64,000 bases of DNA from Halovivax ruber XH-70. Its GTDB lineage: Archaea > Halobacteriota > Halobacteria > Halobacteriales > Natrialbaceae. The notes beneath the pieces were generated by a model, which had not been told where the DNA came from, did no database searches, and saw nothing but the letters and a program-made list of their open reading frames with translations. Position 1 is the stretch's first letter. Every line of letters starts with the position of its first letter. Shown here piece after piece: positions 13,835 through 21,563 of the stretch. The stretch lies in NCBI RefSeq assembly GCF_000328525.1, contig NC_019964.1, forward strand, positions 186,001-250,000, read 5' to 3'. The position numbers and the translations under genes were made by a program.

Positions 13835-13881
13835 GGGCACCTTAGAACTGTCGAGGCTAGAGCCCCTCGTGATCGAGGGGT

Positions 13882-13953
13882 GGGCCCATAGCTCAGTGGG
13901 AGAGTGCCTCCTTTGCAAGGAGGATGCCCTGGGTTCGAATCCCAGTGGGTCCA
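13882..13953 (+). tRNA. tRNA-Ala (anticodon TGC)
   Basis: The 72-nt gene folds as a standard cloverleaf. The acceptor GGGCCCA pairs with TGGGTCC, the anticodon loop is CTTTGCAAG with anticodon TGC, and the T-arm is TGGGTTCGAATCCCA. The discriminator is A and CCA is not encoded. Its place in the 16S-23S spacer is the classic euryarchaeal arrangement, and it is co-transcribed with the rRNAs. Unlike tRNA-Cys and tRNA-Lys in this window, no copy of its 3' end recurs downstream. Confidence 0.98.
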
Positions 13954-13979
13954 TGACTCGGACGATCGCGGATCGTGCC

Positions 13980-17538: not shown

Positions 17539-17614
17539 GCCAAGGTGGCAGAGTCCGGCCGAACGCAGCGGCCTGCAGAGCCGCCCATCGCCGGTTCAAA
17601 TCCGGCCCTTGGCT
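17539..17614 (+). tRNA. tRNA-Cys (anticodon GCA)
   Basis: The gene folds as a cloverleaf. The acceptor GCCAAGG pairs with CCTTGGC, the anticodon loop is CTGCAGA between GCGGC and GCCGC, and the T-arm is GCCGG-TTCAAAT-CCGGC. The discriminator is T and CCA is not encoded. A distal tRNA-Cys after 5S is common in haloarchaeal rRNA operons. Its last 22 nt recur three times in the next 340 nt. Confidence 0.97.
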
Positions 17615-17948
17615 TCTTGCGACGAACGGACGTGAGGAGTAGATGCAAAACGAGGTTTTGAACCACATCAGTCGCGCGCAACGAAGCGAGCACGTCTGAT
17701 CTCGGTTCAAATCCGGCCCTTGGCTTTCTGTGACGAACGGACGTGAGGAGCGAACGCCACACGGACGGTTTGGACCCTGGAAGTCGCAACCGCGAGCGGA
17801 GCGAGCGGTCCGTCTTCCTCCGGTTCAAATCCGGCCCGTGGCTTCTTGCGCCGTGAGCAAACTCGCGAGCGGCGCGAATCAGACGTGGTGTTGAACCAGG
17901 GAGTGGAGCGGAGCGGAACGACTGTGGTTCAAATCCGGCCCGTGACTA
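17593..17948 (+). repeat. Tandem array of tRNA-Cys 3'-end copies with hairpin units
   Basis: GGTTCAAATCCGGCCC of tRNA-Cys (17593) recurs at 17704, 17822 and 17926, spaced 111, 118 and 104 nt. The following acceptor part drifts with distance: CTTGGCT, CTTGGCT, CGTGGCT, CGTGACT. After copies 1 and 2 comes the block GACGAACGGACGTGAGGAG; after copy 3 comes the variant GTGAGCAAACTCGCGAGCGG. Each unit also has an inverted repeat just before the next copy: ATCAG/CTGAT (17667/17696), GGAAG/CTTCC (17779/17814), AACCA/TGGTT (17894/17925). The arms differ between units but pair within each. The spacing, inverted repeats and tRNA core distinguish this from CRISPR. No coding potential is seen. Confidence 0.85.
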
Positions 17949-17996
17949 TTCACGAACCACTGATCCAGGTGGGCTTGCACTCTCGCGTTGTCCGGG

Positions 17997-21187: not shown

Positions 21188-21489
21188 CGGGCCGGGCGCG
21201 ATTGTGAACAACGTCCAGAAATGCTCGCTTCGCTGCGCCTTTCTGGCCTCCTTCAAATCGCTCGTGTCGTTTTCACTGCTCACGTCCGTTCGCAGGAAAA
21301 CGGGCCGGGCGCGATTGTGAACTACGCCGAGACGGTCCTGCTCGCCTCGCTTCACTCACGGTTTCACCGTTCGTATCGCGGTTCTCACTTCGTTCCGAAC
21401 CGCGCTTCGCTCGGCTGTGCGGGCTGCGACTCGTCTCCTTCAAATCGCTTATGGTCGCTTCGCTCCTCGCGTTTCGCTCGGAGCAGAAG

Positions 21490-21512
<23 letters not shown>
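21188..21512 (-). repeat. Tandem array of tRNA-Lys 3'-end copies with hairpin units
   Basis: On the minus strand the tRNA-Lys tail (21512-21490) recurs at 21322-21301 and 21209-21188, steps of 189 and 113 nt. Both downstream copies read GTTCACAATCGCGCCCGG instead of GTTCAAATCGCGCCCGG. The block after copy 2 is TGCGAACGGACGTGAGCAG and after copy 3 is GTGAGCAATCTCGCGAGCGA, nearly identical to the two block variants of the tRNA-Cys array and in the same order. Flanking arms pair: GTTTTCCTGC (plus-strand 21292-21301) with 21269-21279, and CCAGAAA (21215-21221) with TTTCTGG (21240-21246). The unit next to the tRNA is longer, with extra hairpins. No protein is supported here. Confidence 0.85.

Positions 21513-21563
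<51 letters not shown>

Follow-up and report, generated by a model that had tools for sequence, protein, structure and literature searches.

The closest described counterpart of the haloarchaeal locus analyzed here is the 178-bp repeat of the Escherichia coli tyrT/tyrV loci, the source of the RtT/RttR RNA, in which, as here, tandem units lie behind a tRNA and each unit closes with a copy of the 3' end of that tRNA. RtT has been described as a small RNA that is released from the tyrT transcript and affects the stringent response (PMC4986893). At tyrTV of E. coli K-12 (L293), we found the 19-nt tail at +160, +338 and +516; the RtT unit contains an inverted tail that pairs over 12 bp with the tail, three C-GNA-G triloops, and the tandem-GA hairpin CTC-GA-GC-GCCA-GC-GA-GAG. 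The copy number of the tyrT repeat varies, with 1-9 places among E. coli genomes. Unlike the arrays described below, the E. coli repeat occupies one locus, consists of near-identical 178-nt units, has a tail with an encoded CCA, and is transcribed and processed. The Rfam model of RtT (RF00391) had no match in the genome of Halovivax ruber XH-70, where its best score was 15.4 bits against a cut-off of 45, and the haloarchaeal units are therefore not members of RF00391. The haloarchaeal units are thus built like E. coli RtT but have no detectable homology to it. The initial annotation of this DNA knew of no named system of the kind, which was not quite right, since the tyrT/RtT repeat is a precedent.

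Integrative elements that target tRNAs resemble the arrays in that the tRNA is restored and the inserted DNA is bordered by direct repeats of the tRNA 3' end, but they are kilobases long and carry an integrase gene, whereas the units here are gene-less and ~110 nt long, with arrays at more than half of the tRNAs. Bacterial REP/BIME palindromes are short extragenic hairpin DNAs that occur in clusters near the 3' ends of genes; they differ from the haloarchaeal units in having no host-specific tail copies. The PATEs and other small mobile repeats of Haloquadratum are, like the units, gene-less palindromic or inverted-repeat haloarchaeal elements of unexplained mobility, with deletions at short direct repeats, but as described the PATEs have no tRNA link and carry no copy of the 3' end of their target (PMC3119063). 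In Methanopyrus kandleri, an archaeal palindrome lies 10 bp behind about half of the tRNAs, but it is a short, unrepeated motif of ~19 nt without a tail copy (PMC5217627). The arrays were undescribed in the open-access literature searched (subscription papers lay outside that search), and our results suggest a type of DNA element, widespread and quick to change, that has so far not been described as a class.

The tRNA-Cys and tRNA-Lys arrays

The window, that is, the whole 64,000-nt stretch of DNA analyzed, is part of the 3,223,876-bp genome of H. ruber XH-70, which is one contig. In the window, three units lie behind tRNA-Cys, 111, 118 and 104 nt in length, and the 3' end of this tRNA is copied at the close of each. 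A standard unit runs from hairpin 1 through a linker, the anti-tail and hairpin 2 to a copy of the host tRNA tail; the anti-tail is the T-loop and the 3' strand of the T-stem of the tRNA in reverse complement (for example, GGGATTTGAA). The parts of the Cys array are given below, with identities to the units of the sister species Halovivax asiaticus (G003).

17539..17614, plus strand: tRNA-Cys (GCA), host of the array (ARAGORN and Rfam)
17615..17725, plus strand: Cys unit 1, 111 nt, with a perfect tail
17654..17664, plus strand: anti-tail of unit 1, GGTTTTGAACC, which is GGTTCAAATCC reverse-complemented apart from one mismatch
17704..17725, plus strand: Cys tail copy 1, GGTTCAAATCCGGCCCTTGGCT
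17726..17843, plus strand: Cys unit 2, 118 nt, 97% identity to the first unit of G003
17767..17776, plus strand: anti-tail of unit 2, GGTTTGGACC
17791..17807, plus strand: GNA triloop/tandem-GA minihairpin within hairpin 2 of unit 2, CGC-GA-GC-GGA-GC-GA-GCG
17822..17843, plus strand: Cys tail copy 2, one change
17844..17947, plus strand: Cys unit 3, 104 nt, 88% identity to the last unit of G003
17887..17897, plus strand: anti-tail of unit 3, GGTGTTGAACC
17926..17947, plus strand: Cys tail copy 3, two changes

The core GGTTCAAATCCGGCCC occurs again at 17704, 17822 and 17926, with spacings of 111, 118 and 104, and the tails read CTTGGCT, CTTGGCT, CGTGGCT and CGTGACT from tRNA-Cys outward; the positions, spacings and letters reported in the initial annotation matched ours exactly. 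The array was not detected by TRF because its spacers are too divergent. Two features had gone unmentioned, namely the reverse complement of the tail within the spacer and a second array in the window, behind tRNA-Lys, whose parts are as follows.

21490..21563, minus strand: tRNA-Lys (TTT), host of the second array (ARAGORN and Rfam)
21301..21489, minus strand: Lys unit 1, 189 nt, hairpin 2 of which contains nested GA/GNA hairpins
21301..21322, minus strand: tRNA-Lys tail copy with one added T-loop base, GTTCACAATCGCGCCCGGCCCG
21188..21300, minus strand: Lys unit 2, 113 nt
21188..21209, minus strand: second tRNA-Lys tail copy

Lys unit 1 corresponds to the second unit of the sister species, with 98% identity. 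An added T-loop base (TTCANAATC) was present in 16 of 151 tail copies, including the window at 21188-21322, and was found at various tRNAs and in various genera. The added base may prevent copies from passing as tRNA when read or recombined.

Unit anatomy and base pairing

The units are ~100-250 nt long and gene-less, as the initial annotation had noted for this locus, and they open with a T-rich sequence immediately after the tRNA or the tail. The tail copies share 17-22 bp of identity with the tRNA 3' end, and their T-arm portion pairs with the anti-tail. A common type of hairpin 2 has the form AGTCGC...ACGTCT. The anti-tail was complementary at 8/10 positions or better in 103 of 147 units, compared to none in the control, and it fitted its own tail (10.3/14) better than foreign tails (9.0/14). 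In alignment A1, 88% of the cells were paired, and 68 cells carried double changes compared to 22 in shuffled alignments (0/500) and 7 to 19 in slid controls, a covariation that is partly built in because the units were drawn from different tRNAs. Hairpin 1 is free of that built-in effect, and 9 of its 10 pairs covaried. Since the MFE z-scores of single units were modest (-0.6 to -1.8), the structure claim rests on covariation and not on energy.

Pairing of the linker with the acceptor strand, which would form a tRNA-like minihelix for RNase Z, was good in single folds but overall at chance level, the acceptor-strand complement in the units scoring 3.15 versus 3.11 after shuffling. On inspection by eye, there was no support for BHB splice motifs, box C/D or H/ACA guides, or K-turns. 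CCA followed the tail in only 1 of 151 copies, which rules out a SINE-like retro-copy of mature tRNA; since the copies lack CCA, the source of the tail is the gene and not the mature tRNA.

Distribution in the genome, the order and the phylum

Using an ungapped test (20-mer, up to 4 mismatches, 1 kb range), we found own-tail copies on the same strand downstream of 22 of the 41 tRNAs of the genome, none upstream of the 41, and one weak copy on the opposite strand. The same-strand, downstream recurrence for which the initial annotation had proposed looking is therefore borne out, with that one weak copy as an exception. When indels were permitted, 23 of 41 tRNAs had own-tail units, compared to 0 of 30 tRNAs of two non-haloarchaeal archaea. 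The recurrence of tails behind tRNAs is far beyond chance. There was no clear array in any congeneric genome examined for tRNA-Ala(TGC) (13881-13954 in the window, a gene inside the rRNA operon), tRNA-His, Leu-CAG, Thr-GGT and initiator Met.

A covariance model made from 16 units gave 39 matches in its own genome, 38 of them directly behind tRNAs; one match exposed a tRNA-Arg that had been overlooked in the first tRNA scan, and the sole non-tRNA match was weak and lay within hairpins behind a protein gene. With this model, for which E-values are approximate, units were detected in 104 of 117 genomes of the order (93 of the 97 good genomes). In a sample of the phylum, units occurred in 41 of 43 genomes of the order and in 0 of ~204 others. 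A separate pattern search of named genomes had matches in Natrinema, Natronococcus, Haloferax, Halobaculum, Halobellus, Halosegnis and others. At the loci examined in the named haloarchaeal genera, 49 of 50 pattern matches lay behind a same-strand tRNA, and 46 of those 49 were then followed by the own tail of that tRNA. Assembly error as the source of the arrays, a possibility that the initial annotation had raised, is ruled out, since the arrays are non-identical and recur in finished genomes and in many genera.

Turnover at orthologous tRNAs

We compared four congeneric genomes locus by locus. The number of units at orthologous tRNAs ranged from 0 to 4, so that the comparison of unit number between relatives suggested at the outset did reveal variation. 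In 19 locus comparisons, the difference was a clean whole-unit block that adjoins the 3' end of the tRNA and displaces the older units outward; these whole-unit differences represent gain or loss, the direction not being fixed by an outgroup. At tRNA-Arg(GCG), nt 1 of G000 aligned with nt 334 of G003 at 91% identity over 666 nt, the difference being two extra units of 158 and 175 nt. Other proximal offsets of this style were seen at Glu (nt 1 with nt 120) and Phe (nt 1 with nt 267). At tRNA-Cys, nt 112 of G000 aligned with nt 2 of G003, and therefore unit 1, which has the perfect tail, is the unit missing in H. asiaticus, where the first unit is Cys unit 2. The last tail was worse than the first in 27 arrays, equal to it in 20, and better in 1, indicating that the gradient first noticed at tRNA-Cys is real and tRNA-specific. 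The proximal bias could come solely from the proximal tails being more similar to the tRNA.

Differences were also found distally (Lys-ctt, Val-tac, and cases of [A][B] versus [C][A]), and the unit order was rotated at Val-cac, with [A][B] versus [B][A][part of B]. There were exact tandem duplicates at Asp (157x3), Arg (129x2), Met (114x2) and Gly ([A][B][A]), and chimeric units with breakpoints at the anti-tail at Gly-ccc, Lys-ctt and Thr-cgt. In 50 of 128 units, hairpin 2 matched, at 90% identity or more, a module behind another tRNA in another genome, compared to 4 of 128 for hairpin 1; because modules are common to different tRNAs in this way, hairpin 2 is the part that moves between loci. 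It is flanked by a T-loop palindrome that is common to nearly all tRNAs. On a Haloarcula halophila plasmid (NZ_CP119561.1; L292, ~1400-1560), a hairpin-2 module interrupts the T-arm of a tRNA-Cys-like gene, at a site that is a cluster of at least 15 tRNA genes.

Proposed mechanism

We hold, with about even confidence, that the arrays are gene-less tandem DNA repeat units attached to tRNAs and turned over via their tail copies, and that behind tRNAs they are probably tolerated as selfish or neutral passengers and do not encode RNA. The tail copies would serve as crossover sites for excision, duplication and capture of units: an exchange between the tail of the tRNA and that of a unit would delete, duplicate or insert whole units and would always leave a functional tRNA 3' end. 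The routes may be unequal exchange, re-integration of circles, or recombination with incoming DNA. New units would enter most easily beside the tRNA, restoring its 3' end and shifting older, decaying units outward, while the anti-tail could be refitted to each tRNA by template switching inside the palindrome. Haloarchaeal recombination at repeats of 10-20 bp is documented (PMC3119063); a dedicated recombinase, although possible, is unsupported. More tentatively, the haloarchaeal arrays and E. coli RtT may form one class of non-autonomous DNA-hairpin elements of archaea and bacteria that captures the 3' end of a host gene together with an inverted copy, spreads modules among tRNA loci, and adds gene-proximal units.

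The tyrT repeat of E. coli, a decades-old puzzle, becomes one case of an architecture that recurs at hundreds of tRNA loci across an archaeal order, and the rapid turnover between sister species makes the mechanism directly testable. The units also provide natural GNA/tandem-GA DNA minihairpins that are apparently under constraint. That tRNA 3' ends can duplicate without integrases calls for caution in the annotation of att sites and tRNA fragments.

Hairpin motifs and alternative explanations

The main rival to passenger DNA is a host function such as a terminator or a small RNA. The units would then be transcribed as the 3' trailer of the tRNA and act as a terminator, an RNase Z decoy, a sponge or an RtT-like small RNA, with the tails as processing sites. 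The T-rich start of units just after the tRNA or tail, the strongly covarying structure on the tRNA-sense strand, and the fact that the identically laid out RtT of E. coli is transcribed and processed as an RNA are all in favor of this explanation, and the structure conserved across the order could also signal a host function. The loop motifs, on the other hand, are indirect evidence against RNA. GNRA tetraloops were scarce in the units (5/67 versus 16/49 in 23S rRNA), and GNA triloops and tandem GA were found instead: 134 of 187 triloops were GNA, in the C-GNA-G form, compared to 6/57 in shuffled sequences and 1/17 in 23S rRNA, and 239 of 317 2x2 internal loops were 5'-GA/3'-AG, compared to 14/147 and 0/34, respectively. 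GNA triloops form extraordinarily stable DNA minihairpins, their combination with tandem G.A mismatches is a hallmark of highly stable hairpins of DNA and not of RNA, and the GNA/tandem-GA hairpins of the units lie on the tRNA-sense strand. G.U pairs were not in excess, the ratio of G.T to A.C mismatches being 68:52 in the units versus 34:5 in tRNA stems (Fisher p = 0.0005), although decaying copies alone would likewise cut the G.T excess and bring this ratio toward 1. From these motif statistics, obtained with RNA energy parameters, we infer that the unit hairpins behave as single-stranded DNA structures and not as RNA. In addition, the units lack, as described above, the acceptor-strand complement that a tRNA-like 3' end would require, and 0 to 4 units occur at the same tRNA inside one genus. 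We therefore consider a functional RNA unlikely.

It seems quite improbable to us that a site-specific recombinase supplied in trans has repeatedly inserted a tiny satellite at the 3' end of the tRNA. Such a satellite would account for the precise unit junctions at the tRNA end, the restored tRNA and the outward decay of tails. The initial annotation had proposed repeated site-specific insertion, and the part of this proposal that stood is that whole units differ at the tRNA 3' end with the older ones outward; site-specific insertion itself is only one possible reading, as tail recombination explains the gradient equally well. No recombinase was recognized by eye among the ORFs near the window arrays. 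Because the tail sequence differs for each tRNA, the only common core is ~9-11 nt of the T-loop. The rotations, the exact tandem duplications and the copying of protein-gene ends also speak against a satellite, and a virus-borne one was rejected, as a search of viral contigs and phages had no match. Very improbable, too, is a plain history in which an ancestral tRNA 3' flank was duplicated in tandem by unequal crossing-over and then diverged, without mobility or function: the exact duplicates and the chimeras with breakpoints at anti-tails fit it, but hairpin-2 modules are common to unrelated tRNAs, the anatomy and non-canonical motifs are conserved across the order, and, of the simple duplication without gradient or tRNA specificity that the initial annotation had set against its own reading, duplicates and protein-gene copies were found, yet the gradient is real.

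Copies behind protein genes

The genome contained 146 GNA/GA modules compared to 72 for a reversed control. Several GNA/GA clusters lay directly after the stop codons of protein genes, with the gene's own 3' end, including the stop codon, in tandem copies. The protein-gene clusters of the genome are as follows.

L240, 997-1381: cluster with GGCGAGAGCGACGACTGAG three times
L243, 898-1128: cluster in which an 88-nt stretch that takes in the final codons of an SDR-like gene is present twice
L239, 1050-1700: cluster behind a protein gene
L241: cluster behind a protein gene
L242: cluster behind a protein gene

Since the ends of protein genes are copied too, the copying of 3' ends is not strictly tRNA-specific. 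At 695.8 kb of the same genome (L115, 970-1210), deeply nested GA/GNA hairpins without a tRNA, a strong example of these modules at another site, lie behind a gene ending in RSFKHD.
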